DNA of 64,000 nt from Branchiostoma floridae. Taxonomy: Eukaryota; Chordata; Leptocardii; Amphioxiformes; Branchiostomatidae. The stretch lies in assembly GCF_000003815.2 (NCBI RefSeq), contig NC_049995.1, positions 1,290,330 to 1,354,329 of the forward strand, given 5' to 3'. The number at the start of each line of letters is the position of its first letter. Positions within the stretch are counted from its first letter, which is position 1. Below are positions 1 through 21,979 of this stretch, piece by piece. The position numbers and the translations under genes are program-made. Under the pieces are notes generated by a model. It was not told the DNA's origin. It was given only the letters and a program-made list of their open reading frames with translations, and searched no databases.

Positions 1-36
<36 letters not shown>
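1..36. repeat. (AT)n microsatellite
   Basis: The window opens with a pure AT dinucleotide run. Bases 37-351 that follow are AT-rich intron sequence leading to a T-rich tract and an acceptor AG at 350-351. No gene signal is seen in them. Confidence 0.95.
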
Positions 37-38
<2 letters not shown>

Positions 39-351
39 TCATTGACAAAAGTTGATTTCGTCAATTACTAATATATTACTCTTCGGCAAGGCAGAGAATT
101 GACCCATTTCGAGTTCCAGCGGCCATTTTAAAAGTGCTCTCGCAAGAGTACATACTAGCGCGATTTCAAGAAAGCGAGGCCTGCGAGGAGCCTCAAGTCA
201 GAAGGTAAAGCTCTGATATTGTGGAAATACTAAACTTTACTTAACCAACACCAAGTTACCAACACAGATGAACTTTCATGCTAAGCTCTGATATTTGTAT
301 ATTTTGTCCCTGACACGCTATGTTGTTGTTGTTGTTTGTTTGTTTCAACAG

Positions 352-3300
352 AACACGAAGAGTTGTCAGAAGTGCCGGCGGTGCATGGGGGATGGCAGCC
401 GCACCATCGTGCCGTGTCACCTGGTCAGCGACACCCTATGCTCTCCGCCTGTTCCCAACCTCTTCTCGGCGCTGTACCTGTCGGAGATCAGGAACAACTC
501 CTACACCAACATCCCCGGCGGGGACAAGTTGAAACTGCGGCCCATCAGGTCATCCAACGACTCGTACTTCAGCCGCGACCCTTCTTATCAGAACATCATC
601 CTGGAAAAGGCGGGGTTCGCTGTGGTGGACATCAACTACGCCGTAAGAAGCTCGTGCTATATTTTCTCTCTGTAAAAACGTGTTTTTTGTTTTTTGTTTT
701 GGTTGTTTCTTTGTATTGTTGTATGAACAAGTTTGTTCTCGCTTCCTTTTGTTCACGATTGGCCAATGCTGCGGAAAATGGTGTTGGGCACTCTGGAAAA
801 CCATGCGATCGATGCCTATACGTTTCAGCACAGGTGGAGACTTGCAGGATGGCCCGGGGCCAAAGTTCTTACAGCAGACTTAGCCCGGGCCCCGAATTCT
901 TCAAGAAGTTAGACAGCATTAGCGATGAACTTTAAATACTGACGAAATGAAGTGATCTACACAATCCAAAATAGTTCTCTCGGACATATATAAAGTCTTC
1001 TATTTCTTGTCATTTTCTTGTTTGTTTGCTTTTTTTAAGGTTATAATAGCAAACGGTTATAGTGCAATGTTCTTCATGGTAAGACTTTCATGCCAACGTT
1101 TTGTATGTTTATGTGTGGGCGCGCGGGTGTATTTGTGTGTGTCTAGATCTGTGTGTGTGCGGTTTAAGATATGTTGAATTTATGCAGTTTCCACAACCAT
1201 ACTTATTGCTGTATACGAGCATCGTACATGTACATATTACATTTTAAGCAAAATATATAAGGCCTTTTGGGGGTAACAGGATGAGATGACTATATGTTCT
1301 CTTACTCGTTCTACCATTAGTTGAGGCACACATGTGCCAACTACATGCAGCTGAGTGTAGACTGGGACGGCGTGGCCGAGGCCGGCACCCGGCTGAAGCA
1401 GACGGTGGGCCGGTACTACCAGAGCTCTACTGTCAGCACGGCCATGGCGGTCACTCCGGGGGAGACTCTCGGTGTGGAGATCCGCAGCAACAACCGAGAA
1501 TGTTTCCCGCCGGGTGACAGGGCGCCCACACAGCTGAAGGAGGTACACAGTATCCATGTCATGTCATGTATTTTGGGTCTGCCATGATGGGAGGGGGGGG
1601 GGGGGCACTTAACTTATACAGGCGGCGTCAATGAGGTAGTAGAGCATAGTATTCATTCGCGCCCCCTGGTCCATGGCGCAGAATGGAAAGTAGTACCAAG
1701 AAAATTCATAAGGCAGGGTGAAAAAATCTACGTGAGAGACAGCCAGTTACTTGCACAACGGATTAACACACAATTCTGTTAATTGCATGGAATCCCCAAA
1801 TCCCAAACCGGAGCGGTCCAGCTAAATAACTTGGCATTATTGCAACAGCCGGATAATTGCACGAAATTTACTGGCTAATGGGCCGTGGAATTCAGTGGCT
1901 TTAACTGTACAAACATCGCGCACTATAGGTTCAAACATGTCATGGCAGTTGTTGTATGGTCGCTCAGCGATGGCAGTATAGTCGGAAGAGGTTTGATCAC
2001 AGCGCCCCAAGCCACGGGTATGAATATAACACTCTTGCAACCTGTTTTGATTATTCAGGTTGCGGACGTGGAGAGGTCCGGCCCTTTCAGCATTCTCTGG
2101 CTCTCCCACAAGACTGGTGCCGCACTGCTGAAGGCCTCCATGCAACAGGCAACCTACGAGGGCTCCTGGCGGGTAGACTTTGAACTGCAGTCAATATCAG
2201 ATCCATACATGTTGCAACTGAAATCTTCAAATTTCATCAGGTATTTCTGAACAAATTTTAATCTTTTGTTCTTCATGCAAAAGCGGCACCTAGCTTTAGC
2301 AGTGATTATTGCTCTAAGACAGACGGCATTACCTACACAAGAACTTATAATACTGCTATTTGTGTAAAGGTTGGTCAGGATGATGATGCTTTTCGCATAC
2401 GTTGCGCTCGTCGATGAGGCGTTTAAGCAAACTTTCTTTTTTCTACTTTTTTTAAAATCTTATCAGCCCATATAAAATAACAAGATATGTTCCTAGTACT
2501 CTTTTGATAAAAACAGTCGATTGATGGTATAAGTTGCATTTGCGCGATTACTTAAATTTTTTCACCTTCAGAAATGTCCTTCATTTTCGCAAAAAAATGT
2601 GGCCTTTCTAGTTTCCCTTGCAACGGCAATAACAGTAAGCTTCGTCTGTGTCTTAATGTTTGATTCGCTTTATTTTATTGATTTGATTGTTTGTTTGTTT
2701 GTTTGTTTGTTTTTCCCAGTTTTCGCCGGGAAGGAAACGTGCGGTTTTCCTTCCATCAGGCTATGTACCTGCAAGGCTTAGCGTGCTCCGGGCCGGAGGG
2801 TGTGGTCATGGTGCCCAAACTACTGCGCAGGGGCGGCGGAACAGTCAAGGTGGGTAAATAAGTTGTAGTTGTATAAGTGGTGTTTGAATCACATACTGTA
2901 AATGCATTTAAGTTCACGGAGACTTAATTTTGCGGTAGCAGGAAAATGAACTTTTAGCGGTGGTTTTAATTTCGTGGTAGCACCGTGCGCTGTAGTCTCT
3001 TACTGCCATGGAAAAATGTTCACGGTGGTTTTAAATTCGTGGTGAAGCGGCCGCTGTGAAAACCGCGAACATTAAACAATTGCGAAAGTTTCTGCATTTA
3101 CAGTTCGTCGTAGAGTGAAATTTGTTATCACCAAGCACAGTAGGGTTATCTTCTCTGGATACTTCTAAAGAACGCTTGCAGACAGTACAAAAAGTTAGGT
3201 GTGATGGGTCGTTCAATTTAATATAACCAGCTGCTGTCGAAGAGGTGTGTTACGACGAAGGGCAGTTATACCCGCCCGGCTATATATTTTAGATACAGAT

Positions 3301-6198
3301 ACAGAATCTATTACAAATCATTTTCTTCCTCTTTGCAAAAAATCTTTATGCTTGGATACATTGCTAGAAATAATCCAACTTTTCATAGGGACTGTTTCAG
3401 TTTCCAGTGCAATTTAATTATCATATGGTTACGTTCTGTGTTTGTAAAATCCATAGTTGAAGAGTTTTATTTTGAGCTTTGTTCCAACACAACGAAAATA
3501 CTCCCAATGAATTTTCAGTCGATCTCACCAACATCTGTGTTCACGTTTTACTGCGCTGACATTTCGGAAGTCGGAAGTGTATTGACGTCAGGGGTGAATC
3601 AAAAATTGACGAGATCGACCAAAAATTCATGGAATTGTTTTCGTTGTCTTGAAACAAAACTCAAACTTTACAGCGTGGTATGATTGTAACGTTATACGTC
3701 TAAACCAAAGTATCTTCCTAGAAACGTCGATGAAGGTTAGACAACTGCTTTTGGCATATTTTCCTAGAATTGTTGTATTAGTCGTAACTGTAAAATGAGA
3801 GTAAATACAGATAACTGTTATAGTTTTCTCCCAGTTACTACATTGAATTACAACATTACTATCTAATTATGAGATTACTCATAACCAGTATTTTTGTTCT
3901 CGTTTCTCTTGTTCTGCTAAAATAGCTGTTGCAGCACATGAACGTCGGAGTCAACATGCAGTACATGACGCTGGTGACAGGGGCCGCTGTTCCCGTCCAG
4001 GCTGGTGACCGACTGTTTATGGAAATCGAGAGCGCACGTGACTGCACCATGTACTTCCTCGGGTCGGATTTAGGTAAGAAAGCGAAGCATTACACAGTAC
4101 AAGTGACCACTATGGGTCGATGCCTCTGTACGATTGACTCAAAATCTAGGTAGAAATGACTGTAAATTGTACTCTACTTCGCTCTTGTTATTTTCCTCGA
4201 CCGGTAAGCCGCAAAACGCGTGAATGACTGACCATATAATCTGTTCATTTGTCAATAGGTCCAACATCCGGAGCACTGAATCTGCTTTTGCACCCCTACT
4301 GGCCACCGCCACCATAGATAACCACTTTGTTCTCTAAATATTTCACCGTCCTAAAAACTTCTACCTGGAAGCTATGTGACTCCACTGAGCACCCCCCCCC
4401 CCCCCAAAAAAAAGTCTAGGGTCGGCAGGTTTTTGTGGGTAGTTATAGGGAAACAGGAAACACAACATTTTTTCCTAAGCTTAGAGCTTTCTTTTGTCTT
4501 AGAGCTGTGATCTTCCTGGAGATGGTAGGCTGATTTATATTGATTTAGGGGGTACAGTTTGTTTGCCACCTTGCTATCTCGTCCATCTCCAGGAATCGGC
4601 GGGTTGAACGTGCTTTGGCTGCCCCACCAGAAGTCTGCTGTCCTGATGGGCGAGCTGTACAACAACGGACAGCTGGAGGGGGTGGCTCAGAGACAGGTGC
4701 TGCGCTTCACCGAGAAGAACAACACCGACCCCACCGTGCTCAAACTCAACAAGAACGGCAGAGTCACGTGAGTGTTGCCTAGCGACGTTCATTAGGTTTG
4801 ATTAATTCGGTCTAACTTACGGTGGACTCTCACTGCACTTGTGGCTTTGGCTAGAACCGTCTCTCTGATAGAACCATAGCCCCGTGTTTGAGGAAAACCA
4901 TATATCGAGCACGTTAAATAGTGTCCTTCCCTGTGTGAGTTGTTTAAAACCTACAGTCCTGTGGCCGCATATGGTACGGGCCGCAATTAATGTCGTATGA
5001 GGTCACCTGATTTAGCGCGAAATGTCAGACGCTCCAGACCCTTGAGATTTTGCCCCTCCTATTGTAAGTTCCTCGCAATTCAGCCCCTGGCTGCGATGAG
5101 AGAGTAGTAGGTCACCCAATAAGATTTTATTTGATACATATACCAATATTAAGGTACATGAATAAATCACATTAGCTCCTCCATTTAACGTCCTATCTGA
5201 GGGCGGCCCTTACCGAAGCTAGGTACTCATTTTCACCTGAAAAGTGAAATAAAGTGAAGTGAGGAAAGTCGTGTAAAGTGCCTTTCCCTAAGCGAACCCG
5301 TTACCTCTGGGGTCTAGGTCAAACTCCTAACTGATTGAGCTACTAGATAAAGAAGAAAAGCATTTCTATTGTATGTATTCCTCCCCAGGTTTTTGAAGCC
5401 AGGACGAGTGAACGTGAACTACCATCAGAACATCATCCACTCGTGTGACTACGCCAGCATCACAGCGTACTATCACGGCCTGGCTATATCGGACCCCGTC
5501 CCCTTCATGCAGCAGGTACGGACTTACAGACTCCCAACATGTCAACACTAAGCGACGATTTTTCCACATTTTATTCACAAGTCATAAATTACAGAACATT
5601 CACAAATATTCTCCTACTCATTTGTATCACCATTTAACATACGACTAAATAGACACAACTTTAACCCTATCCAGGCTCATTCGGCCCGCCTTCGTATTTT
5701 CAAAACGGCTAATTGTACAATCACTAAATTTGCCGAAGGCTAATAGCAAGTACATGGTAGAAACATACTAGTAAGAAAGATACGTGTGACAATGAACACT
5801 GATCAGTAAGCATCATTCCCAACACATGCACATCTAAACATGCTCTCGCGAGAGTACAGCGTGACGAGAATGCACGTGAGCTCGCACGAAAGCGAGGACC
5901 GGGAAAGTTGATGTTTGTTTCAGATAGTCTTTACCCAGGGTGGCCTGCATGGATCATGCAGATCTAACTATACTGTTTATTACGTTCCGTCGTAGTCGTA
6001 TCACAACATCCTTTGTATATATTTCCACAGGTCCTTGGTAACACTAACGCGAAAGCGGAAGGCATCTACCTTAGCGGGTCGTACGACGTGGAGGAAGGTT
6101 CCCAGATCTACCTACAGATGACCTGCAAACGGGGCAGGATCAACGGGGTGGGGGAGGGGCACTTCAGCACGCTGTCTGTACTCTGGATCATGCCGTAG
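352..6198 (+). CDS. TNFR-like Cys-rich segment plus three TNF/C1q-like jelly-roll modules (3' part of gene)
   Basis: Exons, all with AG/GT borders: 352-642, 1321-1542, 2059-2240, 2720-2849, 3926-4073, 4593-4767, 5389-5515 and 6031-6198 (TAG). Phases agree throughout and give 480 residues; the 5' exons lie before the window. Residues 5-30 hold C..C..C, then C, then DT.C (Cys 5, 8, 11, 22, 30), the spacing of a TNF-receptor cysteine-rich module. Three similar modules follow. Each opens with a G-x-(V/F)-x-(V/F) strand (AGFAVVDINYA; REGNVRFSFHQ; KPGRVNVNYHQ). Each continues with a (P/Q/E)GE/GD/GS-x-(L/I) strand (TPGETLGVEI; QAGDRLFMEI; EEGSQIYLQM) and closes on (F/L)(S/N)(I/V)LW or LSVLW. Modules 2 and 3 start after a phase-2 intron, and all three are cut by a phase-0 intron, so they arose by exon-block duplication. 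The TNF versus C1q assignment rests on the GD-L and terminal strands only. No membrane segment is seen in this part. A likely extracellular protein; its function is unknown. Confidence 0.8.
1743..1874. repeat. Dispersed ~135-bp repeat, copy 1 (pogo/Tigger-like ends)
   Basis: It shares TTGCACAACGGAT and GGATAATTGCACGAAA with a second copy at 23594-23725, in the same order. The outer CAGT/ACTG ends and the GGATAATTGCAC motif resemble pogo-type non-autonomous elements, but the inverted repeats are imperfect. Classification is tentative. Confidence 0.5.
2896..3103. mobile_element. MITE with CTGTAAATGCA terminal inverted repeats, copy 1
   Basis: It begins CTGTAAATGCA and ends TGCATTTACAG, about 208 bp. 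The interior contains repeated GCGGTGGTTTTAA and CCGCGAACATTAAA blocks that pair with each other. The left flank is TA and the right TT, compatible with a TA target duplication altered by mutation. A second copy (46301-46503) has both TA flanks. It has no coding capacity and is probably Tc1/mariner-type. It sits in an intron of the TNF-like gene. Confidence 0.85.
3110..3920. other. Intron sequence, nothing recognised
   Basis: An AT-rich intron between the second-module exons of the TNF-like gene. The open frames are short and lack domain signal. A near-palindromic TCGATCTCACC..GAGATCGACC pair lies at about 3520-3622. Confidence 0.6.
4259..4317 (+). CDS. Alternative terminal exon of the TNF-like gene
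   Basis: It is preceded by an acceptor (GTCAATAG) and joins the donor at 4073 in the same phase as the downstream exon at 4593. It would complete the same glycine codon and then encode a short tail beginning PTSGALNLLLHPYW and ending in prolines and TAG. GALNLLLHPYW parallels GGLNVLWLPHQ of the 4593 exon and LSVLWIMP at the real C-terminus. It therefore looks like a spare copy of the last jelly-roll strand that ends the protein after module 2. No canonical AATAAA follows closely, so use as a 3' terminal exon needs transcript support. Confidence 0.55.
4350..4480 (+). repeat. Dispersed repeat shared with 41255-41385 (inverted)
   Basis: It contains GAAGCTATGTGACTCCA, a C-tract with an A-tract, GTCTAGGGTCGGCAGG and GGAAACAGGAAACACAACA. 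The reverse complement of the same order (GTTGTGTTTCCTGTTTCC, CAACCCTAGAC, GGAGTCACATAGCTTCTA) is found at 41255-41385. The family is unknown. Confidence 0.75.
4955..5130 (+). mobile_element. SINE 3' half (shared tail)
   Basis: It carries GTATGAGGTCACCTGATTTAGCGC, then CTTGAGATTTTGCCCC and GTAGTAGGTCACCCAATAAGA. The same tail appears near 22270-22340, 37855-37985 and 49155-49210. It marks a common tRNA-headed SINE family. Confidence 0.75.
5190..5345 (-). mobile_element. tRNA-headed SINE 5' half, reverse strand
   Basis: Reading the minus strand from about 5345 down gives TAGCTCAATCAGTTAGGAG (A-box-like) and GGTAACGGGTTCGC (B-box-like). These are followed by GGGAAAGGCACTTTACACGA and GAGTACCTAGCTTCGGTAAG. 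That is the head and body of the SINE seen at 21980-22350 and 58225-58410. It lies head-on against the fragment just upstream. Confidence 0.75.
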
Positions 6199-6258: not shown

Positions 6259-6852
6259 ATGAAGAACGAAGACCACTTTTATACCAAACCGTTTTGTGAA
6301 GTTTGTGTAATTTCATGTGGAATATCATTCAGTTCAGTTCATCCTCAGAGAGGTAACACCAGCGTCTCCGCATGTTTCTGTCCAGCATGGTTGAACGGAG
6401 CTCGAATATAAATATGAATAGAGAAAGGCACTACTAAAGAACTAATGTGTGGACAAAGAAGTCAAAAGATATATTTGAAGAATTTTTTCGAACATACATT
6501 TTTGTTACGTTAAAAGGCTACAATGTTATTTGGCTATTGTTGCCTGTCTTGTAAAGTGTACGTAGATTTTATTTAAGACATTTAAGGCTCTGTGTTTTCA
6601 AAAATATATTAACCATTTGCAACAATCTTGAATCGCAATGTAAGGTGACAAAAAAACGAGACGCAAAAGAAAGGACATATTGCTCTTTTAAACTGAATGA
6701 TGTTTTTCCCATGCTCCTTGAAAATATATCAGTTTTGTCCCTCTGTGTTTCTTGGTAAAATCTTAATAATTTTTTAAAAACTGGTTTCACACAATGTATT
6801 CCTTACATTTACATGGTGAAATTCCTTTAGCTTTTATCATTTTGGCTCAAGG

Positions 6853-8250
6853 CATGCAGGGAGACAGGCAGATAGGGAGACAGTAGACAGGAATGCAGCA
6901 GGCAGGTAGGCTGACAAACGGGGAGACCGACAGGGAGGCAAACAGATGACAGAAAGACAGACAGGGAGGCAGACAGATAGGGAGACAGACGGGGAGGCTA
7001 ACATACAGAGAGACAGACATGGAGGCAGAGAGACAGGGGGACAGACAGACAGGTAGACAGACGGGGAGGCAAAAATACAGAGAGGCAGACAGGGAGGCAG
7101 AGAGACAGGGGGCAGACAGACAGGGAGACAGACACACAGGGAGACAGACACACAGGGAGACAGACAGGCAGACAGACGGGGGCAAACAGATAGGGAGGTA
7201 GGCAGATAGACAGGGAGGCAGACAAACATAAAGACCTACAGAGAGACAGCCAGACAGGGAGACAGACAGACAGGGAACCAGACAGGGAGGCAGACAGACA
7301 GGGAGTCAGGAAGGCGGGAAGACAGGGAGACAGACTTCGAGGTAGACAGGGAGGGAGACAGGCAGACAGGGAGCCACACAAACAAGCAGGCAGCTGGCCA
7401 GACAGACAGACAGGGAGGCAGACAGACGGGGAGATAGACAGACATGTAGTCAGACTGACAGGGAGCAAGACAGACAGAGAGACAGGGAGGCAAACATACA
7501 GGCAGGGTGCGGCAAGACAGGAAAGTGACAGACTGGGAGGCTGACAGACATGGAGGCAGACAGACAGGGAAACAGATACACATTGAGGCAGCAGGCAGGG
7601 AGGCAGACAGACAGGTCGACAGACAAAGGTAGACAGACAGAGAGGCAGCAGACAGGGAGGCAGACAGGCAGGAAGCTTGAAGGAGACAGACAGGGATTTA
7701 CCAGACAGACAGGCAGACCGATAAACAGGATAGCAAGAAATACGGGTGACAGACTTGGAGGCAGACAGACAGGGAGGCAGACAGACAGGGAGTGAGACAG
7801 GCAGGAGCTTGAAGCAGACAGGCAGCGATTCACCAGACAGGGAGGCCAACGGACAGGAAGGCAGACCGACAGAAAGAGATACAAACAAGGAGCAGGACAG
7901 ACAGGAGGCAGGCAGACAGGTAGACAGACAGATGGACAAACAGGGAGGTAGACAGGGAGGCAGAGAGGTAGACAGACGTTGAGGCAGACAGGAAGGGAGT
8001 CTAAAGCAGACAGACAATGATTTAGACAGACAGATAGACAGACAGACAGGGAGCATGACAGACAGGGAGCCAGACAGACAGGTAGGAAGACAGACAGGCA
8101 CTACAGACTGACAGAGAGATTGGGGGCAGACAGTAATGGAGGCAGACAGACAAGGAGCTAAACAGACAGGGAGGCAGACAGACAGGGAGACAGACAGAGA
8201 GACAGGGAGGCAAACAGACAGGCGGGCAGACAGACAGCAAACCCACAGAC
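6853..8250. repeat. GACA/GACAGGGAGGCA minisatellite
   Basis: About 1.4 kb of purine-rich units built from (GACA)n, GACAGGGAG and GAGGCAGACAGACAGG, with irregular spacing. All strand asymmetry is purine on plus and pyrimidine on minus. Long open frames on both strands are a by-product of the repeat lacking stop triplets. Confidence 0.95.
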
Positions 8251-8406
8251 CATAATCAGGTGCGACCTGAGCCAAGACTACATCGAAGGAGGAACGCACA
8301 CTACAGTCCCTCCAGACATCCTGCCGACTTCACTAGTACCAGACATCACCATTCAGGATCCTATACAACAAACACTGAACTTGGTTAATGAAAGAAACTT
8401 GCACAG
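8251..8406 (+). pseudogene. Possible retroelement pol-tail remnant
   Basis: One frame is open from the edge of the minisatellite to a GTAAGT at 8407. It reads CDLSQDYIEGGTH, then VPPDILPTSLVPDITIQD. The pattern D-I-L-x-T-S-x-x-P-D-(I/L) is one I associate with the region after the reverse transcriptase in some invertebrate retroelements. It could instead be an orphan exon, since splice-like borders exist at both ends. Confidence 0.3.
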
Positions 8407-9589
8407 GTAAGTTACAGGGCTAGCCTTGTTACAGTTGAAGCAGGGAGCAGAGGGTTGAATTAACGGCGAGAACACTGCAAAGCTGACGTCGCTCTGTCCG
8501 GTAAGCTACAAAGACCGTGAAGTTAGACATCTTAAAAGTAGACTGGGAAAGTGCCACTTTATGCACCCTATGCTATCTACTGTGCTAAAAACACGCCTAC
8601 ATGGGACTGTATACGTCAGGACTGTTCATCTACAGAAACTAGCTGTGAGTCATCAGTGTCTAAATATTATCAAAAGTAAGGTTAATTTTTTTAAACGCTT
8701 TCAATCTGTCCGATTACATTGTAATTCTTTAATACCTTACGCCCTCTTGATAAACAAAGGGCTGTCCTAGGTTTTAGTGTGTACATTCATCTTCTGAAGA
8801 ATAAAGATGATTTTAACCCCCTGTCTCAGTCACTACAAAGTGCAACAATGTTCCATATTGTGATGGACTCTCTGCGCATTCTTCACGCCCGGTATCGCTA
8901 AACCCGACACTTTAAAAAACTTGCGTAAATTAAACAAAAACTACACAATAACGACGACAAGCTTCCCAAATTCTTCACTGCGTTTGTGTATTGTGGCCAA
9001 TTTTAAGATAAACAGTACAATTTTTTAAAGACTTTTGACAAATTTGTTCGCCGGCGACATGTTTTCCTGGTACGGCATTATGCATTAATTTGAAAAACCC
9101 TTCCTCATTGACTGTACCTAATCAGGTCATCGCTTTCGCCAGGTACCGAGCGTAAAATTCATTTAGCCGCGACGATGCAGCTGGGACACATACGTCACGC
9201 GCGGCAACGTGACTATATATGGTAACACACAGGAAAGGCGGCGGGCTCAGTGAAAATATGAATACTGTTAAAAGCTAGAGCTGTATTTTTGCAATATTCA
9301 GACGCTCCAGCCTTGTGGATCAAAAATGTAACCTGGCGATGCTAACTAGAACTGCAACCTATCGTGGTCAAGAGTCGTCGATTCGAAATGCATTACGCTA
9401 AACTATTGTATGGAACGATGGAACTGCTACCAAATATACCAACAGTATATACTACACTACTAAAAAGGCAATGTCATAGCTAAACTTTATATCCGTTCGC
9501 ATAATTAGAACGCACCTACGGGAAAGGTCACCTAGCACCCAACTACATCCCGGACAGTAGCGGTCTGCAACCATTTCTTAACTTATCCT
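8407..9589. other. Intergenic, nothing recognised
   Basis: AT-rich sequence with an AATAAAG at about 8801 and no open frame with domain signal on either strand. Confidence 0.6.
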
Positions 9590-9965
9590 CTTCATATTAA
9601 ACCTATACTGGCCAGAATAAGTAACAATAATGTAAAAGACAAGTATTTTGAATCTCTGATGAAGTTGATTGGGGAGTTAATTGCTTCACTCTATATGGTC
9701 GTTTTTTGTTTTAGTTTTTGCCAACCAACACATTGCTATCAACAATATATTAACTGTACGTGAAATTTAAGTTTTCAAATTCTAATTTCTGGTTGCTGAC
9801 CAATGAAATTCTGTTAAATGTATACAAGGACAAATGTGTAAATGACTGTACTGTCGAAGAAAAGCCAAAGACCTAGCTTATGACATTTGCCCTTCCAATT
9901 AACGATTTTGTGGTTGAATGATCATCAAAGAAACCCTTACGTAAGATCGTCACTTTCCCACGATT
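9590..9965 (+). repeat. Diverged single copy of the 287-bp repeat
   Basis: It shares CTGGCCA.AA..AACAATAATGTAA, GCCAACCAACACATTGCTATCAAC, ACTGTACTGTCGAAG and CTTACGTAAGATCGTCACTT with the tandem array at 12606-13846, in the same order and with more differences. It is probably the dispersed ancestor of the tandem family. Confidence 0.8.
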
Positions 9966-20479: not shown

Positions 20480-21979
20480 AAGAATCCCGGACAGTGTGAC
20501 CCCAGCAGTGCTGAGCCCTGTTGTTCCCCACAGGGATTGTGTAGAGCTAGCGCCAACCACTGCACCTGCTCAGGCTGTACTGACTACCGTACGTATAACT
20601 CCAAAATAAAGAAAATGATGCATTCCAAACTTTGCATTTGTACTTGTATTGTAAAGGGTAGTAAAGGTTTAATATACCAATTATCAGCTAAATGTGCTAA
20701 TATATCATTAAACCGCATGGCATAGCATATCTGCCGCATTTACCCACATTTACCAGGTGGATGCAAATTTGCATGTGTCAAGATTTATGTACAGTACGGG
20801 GTATTCATAAAATCTGTGAGTTTACCGACAAAACCGCGTGGAATATTTCTTTCTTGCGTGATTACAACTTCATTGTTCCGATTATGCTTCCTCTTTCACA
20901 GGATGGCTGGACATGGATACGGTAAGGGTTGTTGGGCAATCAGGACATCCGTATGAGCACGGAGGAGTGATATATGATCCACAAAAAACCTTGGATGGGG
21001 ACGTAGGAACCTGGTGGAACCCTCAAGTCCCCAATCGATGGTATAACAACTGGTACATCGCTTACGACCTCGGAGCGCCCTTCACACTGATCAAAGTCAC
21101 CATGAATAACTTTGGAGACTTCAACCATGACGTTAAAAAATTCCGATTGCAAAAGTCAGAGAAGAAGATGCCATGGAGCTGGTCGGTTGTCACGTACGTT
21201 ACTAACGTGAGAGCCAGCACGAATGCTCGACAGGAATTCGGCGGTTTCAGAGCAACAGCGCAGTATTGGCTATTCATAGTCAAGGAGACTCAGTCTGGCT
21301 GGCAGCCGTGGTTAAAAGAAGTGCAATTCCATGGATTCACAACTGGTAACTGGTATATTATATTTCTCTATATTTATAAACAGTTAATATCTGCTAAAGG
21401 GCGTCTGGTCCTCAAGCTTTCTATGTACTTTAATATCTCTTAATTAGTTGACCTCTAACGATTTGTTACCTGCTTTCAACGCCTTATACTAAACGGCCTA
21501 AATTTCTGTATCCTAGGGATTTTTTTTGTATCTTCTTACATGTGTGATAGTCACTTAACTGTTTTGTAAAGCTCATCCCGTCTACTGTTAGCGAAAGCAA
21601 AATCATATAAGACACAGTGCATTAGAAGCCAGTCCTTATGGAGGTACTTGTATTTAGAAAATGATTATTGCCGAAAAAAACGAAAATCCAGATAAGGTAA
21701 ATAAGACAAAAGTCAGATTTTTATCCTCCAAAAATATGATCTATCAGAAAATAACATTTACTTTTAGGTGCTTTAGAAGGAATAACACCCCCCAATCTCC
21801 CCCTTCTGCCATATCATTACTCATTACCATTAGGGCAAAATGCCTAACTATAAATTTAACGATTTTTACCATAAACAAGTCCTGTACAAACCACAACCAC
21901 ACATTTTAAATGAAAACATCCTCACCCTTTGGTGATACTTCCCAACCCTTAACCCCAACCTGCCAATTCATGCGTGAGA

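Follow-up and report, generated by a model that had tools for sequence, protein, structure and literature searches.

Three tandem modules joined to TNFR-type cysteine modules in a Branchiostoma floridae gene family: a possible single-chain C1q/TNF-like trimer

The gene described here lies at the beginning of a 64,000-nucleotide stretch of the B. floridae genome (the window, C17:1290330-1354329) and encodes a chain in which two TNFR-type cysteine modules, separated by an EGF module, are followed by three related modules, named M1, M2 and M3. In the explanation that we favour, to which we assign a probability of about 0.55, the product would be a secreted mosaic protein, and its three modules would build a covalent head carried on a stalk in a multivalent layout. 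The gene belongs to a family with at least six loci.

Engineers fuse three TNF or C1q domains per chain for stable agonists or recognition heads. If the proposal is true, a family that keeps three unlike modules joined by short, constant linkers would provide a natural example of a single-chain trimer and would illustrate how three specialised faces can arise in a trimeric fold. Moreover, the presence of TNFR modules in the same chain makes receptor-like and ligand-like action in cis testable.

Gene model and gene family

Splicing the eight exons of the window in frame returned AG/GT at all borders and one open frame of 480 residues ending in a stop codon, confirming the exons and coordinates proposed in an earlier note on this DNA. 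The missing 5' exons, whose recovery from neighbouring sequence had been suggested there, were found in the 10 kb preceding the window (L009). Five exons complete a model of 13 exons and 749 residues with matching phases, canonical splice sites and a single stop. The features are as follows.

Upstream exons 1-5, L009:4784-4892, 6338-6604, 7815-7932, 8313-8447 and 9446-9623: phases match
1..351, + strand: 3' part of the intron joining exon L009:9446-9623 to exon 6, phase 0 on both sides, gap-free against three paralogues
352..642, + strand: exon 6 of 13, last five cysteines of TNFR module 2 (aa 1-30), then the first part of M1 (splice sites, frame, TNFR_c6)
1321..1542, + strand: exon 7, strands of M1 after a phase-0 intron (splice sites, frame, paralogue alignment)
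2059..2240, + strand: exon 8, end of M1 (last strand FSILWL), 5-residue linker, start of M2
2720..2849, + strand: exon 9, middle of M2
3926..4073, + strand: exon 10, strands of M2 bearing the C1q/TNF-like F-G signature (profile comparison)
4593..4767, + strand: exon 11, end of M2 (LNVLWL), 5-residue linker, start of M3
5389..5515, + strand: exon 12, middle of M3
6031..6198, + strand: exon 13, end of M3 and stop codon

The encoded parts are, in order, a signal peptide (recognised by eye), a kringle, a possible coiled coil, a TNFR module, an EGF module, a second TNFR module and M1-M2-M3, directly followed by the stop; within the 480-residue part, M1 covers residues 36-187, M2 188-335 and M3 336-480. 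Exon L009:9446-9623, located some 550 to 380 bases upstream of the window, carries the end of TNFR module 1, the EGF module and the first cysteine of TNFR module 2, which thus lies in an exon ending 377 bases upstream of the window. Cysteines 5, 8, 11, 22 and 30, listed in the earlier note, are indeed at these positions and represent the last five of a six-cysteine TNFR_c6 module. The five upstream exons were placed on the basis of splice sites and phases, with backing from paralogues only for the last junction (into exon 6) and for the TNFR-EGF part. A candidate micro-exon at 1040-1078 (39 bases, in frame, 13 residues), considered by eye, was dropped because including it broke the match between M1 and M3. 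In agreement with this, no extra residues occur at that point in the unspliced paralogues.

Searches of the same genome covered 513,431,437 bases in 431 contigs and returned 14 places with M3 as query and nine with M2. Besides the window gene, five loci match both M2 and M3, and M1 is present in all of them.

L012, C18:10.399 Mb: paralogue, unspliced from TNFR module 1 through M3
L023/L055, C18:10.408 Mb: paralogue, M1 (in L055) and M2 seen in part only
L013, C146: paralogue, unspliced from TNFR module 1 through M3
L016, C18:2.664 Mb: paralogue, open frame starting within the second half of TNFR module 1; L028, upstream, holds the first half
L021/L022, C11:9.52 Mb: paralogue with M1, M2 and M3

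The identity to the window gene is 37% over 475 residues for L012, 40% over 479 for L013 and 31% over 474 for L016. All eight junctions, namely the seven that separate window exons and the one leading from upstream into exon 6, are gap-free against each of these three paralogues, with four residues aligning on either side, and dN is lower than dS by a simple count method (0.65/1.23 for L012, 0.62/saturated for L013, 0.79/2.57 for L016). These results show that the architecture is real and constrained, its CRD-EGF-CRD-M1-M2-M3 part being conserved. None of the window-gene introns between TNFR module 1 (in L016, its second half) and the end of M3 is present in L012, L013 and L016, suggesting retroposition or wholesale loss of introns with subsequent duplication.

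Fragments of the gene occur at four other places, three of them being copies of the last exon on C17 (C17:1222146, 1146469, 394310 (-); L017, L019, L020) with 92.6-98.2% DNA identity over 164-214 bases, and one a piece around M2 at C208:56028 (L058), 87.5% identical over 1,409 bases. These partial copies are either recent segmental copies or assembly remnants. Outside this genome, pattern searches for M3 relatives gave 29 matches in viral contigs and 40 in prokaryote genomes, none of which was confirmed.

Relationship and packing of the three modules

The three modules had been described in the earlier note as related, and profile comparison by hhalign agrees with this, the scores being 54.3 for M3-M2, 49.1 for M3-M1 and 39.2 for M1-M2, while 100 column shuffles of each pair reached at most 18.7, 21.2 and 20.0 and the reversed controls 16.9, 12.4 and 9.2, respectively. 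By these profiles, M1, M2 and M3 are homologous to one another. A tree built from 16 modules places each position on one side of a branch, with support of 98/98 for M1, 100/99 for M2 and a weak 71/59 for M3; the M1 of the C11 locus forms a long branch, and the usual long-branch warning applies to the tree. As the module positions split the tree in this way, the modules seem to have been triplicated before the genes were duplicated.

The exon borders repeat less regularly than had been proposed. A phase-0 cut does occur within each module. M2 and M3 each contain a phase-2 intron at alignment column 57, in their interior and not at the module entrance, and a phase-0 intron, at columns 100 and 104 respectively, 4 apart. 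M1 shares neither of these positions, its phase-0 introns falling at columns 71 and 164. A phase-1 intron precedes the start of M3 by 11 residues, and the M1/M2 border contains no intron.

Measured across five of the six loci, the H-to-A gap, which separates the final strand of a module from the opening strand of its successor, has 5 residues at each of 10 borders; the strand ends were assigned by eye. Three engineered single-chain proteins in the PDB, C1q-scGR (5hkj), adiponectin (4dou) and cerebellin-1 (5kca), carry three C1q/TNF domains per chain, as the window gene is predicted to do, but they are laboratory-made, carry no TNFR parts and leave 12-15 residues between the ends of the C1q alignments. 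The short linker of the window gene therefore fits an intramolecular trimer, though tightly, and neighbouring modules might exchange their first strands. A single-chain trimer is consistent with both the short linkers and the published C1q geometry (PMC4774423).

In the arrangement that we propose, M1, M2 and M3, held by linkers of about 5 residues, would pack round one three-fold axis in a covalent pseudo-heterotrimeric head, where three unlike modules would offer three different faces. Beneath the base of this head, the TNFR-EGF-TNFR segment would serve as a stalk, and several chains may be bundled by an N-terminal coiled coil into a multivalent molecule with a layout like that of complement C1q or a CTRP. 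This coiled coil is clear in one paralogue, L012, where all 7 positions of an upstream heptad repeat are hydrophobic (6 Leu, 1 Val) and 5 of 5000 shuffles scored as high; in the window gene, where 697 of 5000 shuffles did so, it lacks significance. Judging from the relatives, the protein would probably act outside the cell, recognising a receptor or else a surface that is microbial or altered.

The modules might instead be separate C1q/TNF-like domains, each trimerising with the same module of two other chains through the coiled coil and giving stacked or beaded homotrimers, an alternative that we consider rather unlikely. TNF itself forms trimers of separate chains, and the heptad repeat of L012 would agree with such an assembly. 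C1q domains are likewise described as homo- or heterotrimers of separate chains (PMC10672478), but in a stack linkers of about 5 residues would leave little axial room if both termini of each domain lie at one end, as in the published C1q geometry (PMC4774423).

Fold of the modules

Among the 13 module sequences submitted to Pfam, none matched C1q (PF00386) or TNF (PF00229), the only matches being unrelated chance ones (E 0.027 and 0.093), and PDB sequence searches with the modules gave nothing or chance hits, with no TNF or C1q protein. None of the 56 places in the C1q list of the same genome, nor of the 21 in its TNF list, is on C17. The earlier note had named the lack of any TNF or C1q hit as one outcome that would speak against its proposal, and this is formally what the curated libraries returned; profile comparison did support the relationship.

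The module profiles were compared with C1q and TNF profiles from the same genome, comprising 12 sequences (12 of 20 fetched C1q loci) and three (L001, L002 and L003, out of eight TNF loci), and with F5/8C, another jelly roll searched only to supply control sequences (12 of 12 stretches), using 100 shuffles each. The combined module profile scored 22.7 over 95 columns against C1q and 23.0 over 26 columns against TNF, values reached by 0 of 100 shuffles in either case, and 10.2 against F5/8C, where 36 of 100 shuffles were as high. In the same test the accepted relatives TNF and C1q scored 32.9 with each other, C1q-F5/8C 11.3 and TNF-F5/8C 11.8. The stretches matched by the combined profile, TNF 98-124 and C1q 14-108, include all but one column of the TNF-C1q mutual match (TNF 99-121, C1q 87-109). 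The combined profile thus displays the in-register similarity beyond controls by which C1q/TNF superfamily membership was judged.

Single modules gave weaker results than the combined profile, M3 being the weakest. Shuffles as high for C1q, TNF and F5/8C respectively numbered 0, 5 and 11 of 100 for M1, 0, 0 and 4 for M2, and 1, 1 and 74 for M3, the C1q value of M3 being 0 of 60 when 60 shuffles were used. The C1q score of M2, 23.7, was narrowly above the shuffle maximum of 22.8 to 22.9, and M3 aligned to C1q near its start (columns 6-25), not at strand F-G, and to TNF in the F-G part. On these comparisons each M module is quite probably a divergent jelly roll of the C1q/TNF superfamily, an assignment that is supported, not proven.

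Somewhat less probable than homotrimers of separate chains is a different beta-sandwich fold, similar to C1q/TNF only in the strand F-G turn, with the modules acting as spaced adhesion domains. The lack of curated-family and PDB matches would agree with it, as would the TNF alignments, which extend over 18-38 columns only; however, M2 and the combined profile match C1q over 94-95 columns, and the F5/8C control stays at chance with the combined profile, its single-module values being those given above.

TNFR-type parts and known systems

The full model matched the Pfam family TNFR_c6 in two stretches (E=3.5e-9, 37.4 bits against a cut-off of 29.4). Taken alone, module 2 scored 30.1 bits and module 1 27.7, just under the cut-off; among the paralogues, L012 and L016 exceeded it and L013 fell just short (28.9 bits). 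EDAR (E=0.02) was the sole PDB match of TNFR module 2 up to E=1. Together with the predicted C1q/TNF-type fold of the modules, these results uphold the earlier reading of receptor-like and putative ligand-like parts in one chain. EGF_CA stayed under its cut-off of 27 in the window gene (E=4.7e-4, 20.8 bits) and scored 27.9 in L012, 30.3 in L013 and 25.5 in L016.

A kringle was recognised in the full model (Pfam, E=2.8e-22, 79.3 bits against a cut-off of 34.3), and the splice phases suggest that it is part of the transcript. Its exon, L009:6338-6604 (phase 1-1), occurs only in the window gene among the loci examined: neither tblastn nor a motif search detected a kringle within the 10 kb preceding four paralogues. 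The exon is either a recent gain or an optional exon.

Hydropathy revealed no membrane span in the window gene (highest 19-residue mean 1.06), and with the stop directly after M3 the gene shows neither the membrane anchor nor the signalling tail of a TNF receptor superfamily receptor. Soluble members of this superfamily exist, and the protein might be a decoy whose TNFR modules bind a TNF ligand while the jelly rolls add only valency. The two TNFR_c6 stretches, the EDAR match, the lack of a span and the position of the stop would all suit such a decoy, which we nevertheless regard as improbable: a pair of modules interrupted by EGF would be an unusual ligand-binding surface, and the three jelly rolls are kept in all six loci, one of them seen in part only, so they do not appear to be an optional addition. 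Within the favoured arrangement of a covalent three-module head, the TNFR modules at its base might touch the head in cis, producing a self-caged molecule that opens on a trigger, an idea even less probable than the decoy. An artefact (unrelated exons wrongly joined, or a pseudogene), to which the partial copies on C17 and C208 might point, is scarcely credible given the same order in unspliced paralogues and dN lower than dS.

Among known proteins, C1q, CTRPs and EMILIN/multimerin combine an N-terminal oligomerising stalk with a C-terminal C1q head; unlike the window gene, they have one C1q domain per chain, and their stalk is collagen or a coiled coil, not TNFR/EGF. The engineered APRIL fusion 4zch, whose partner is presumably BAFF, resembles the window gene as a three-domain chain by name and length only, and is laboratory-made without TNFR parts. 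The engineered single-chain trimer scOX40L, described with 7-residue linkers, also has three domains per chain and is again laboratory-made, without TNFR parts in its description (PMC11757143).

The earlier note knew of no described arrangement of this kind, which, in the literature searched, holds for the TNFR fusion but not, besides the engineered trimers, for the tandem modules. The bivalve proteins HcC1qDC6, HcC1qDC5 and CfC1qDC-2 are described as multi-C1q proteins, HcC1qDC6 consisting of a signal peptide followed by C1q domains at 24-159, 167-302 and 305-443 (PMC5519582, PMC10672478). They share with the window gene three tandem domains with short gaps; unlike it, their domains are reported as standard C1q domains recognised by SMART, and the description of HcC1qDC6 names no TNFR, EGF or kringle part. 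The amphioxus TNFR-caspase is a comparable case of a TNFR module shuffled into a new architecture, but it is described as a predicted transmembrane protein with an intracellular caspase, with no mention of jelly rolls in that description (PMC2575513). B. floridae is reported to possess at least 24 TNF and at least 36 TNFR superfamily genes (PMC12843592), and no protein joining TNFR modules to C1q/TNF domains was found in the titles and opening lines of abstracts returned by searches of open-licence papers. What is new here is the fusion to TNFR modules together with the constant count of three.

Finally, two features were observed in the window beyond the gene. An imperfect tandem array rich in CAGACAGGGAGG units extends over 6857-8237, downstream of the stop codon, and an exon-like frame at 20862-21443, perhaps part of the next gene, shows a weak F5/8 type C match (E=3.7e-5, under the cut-off).
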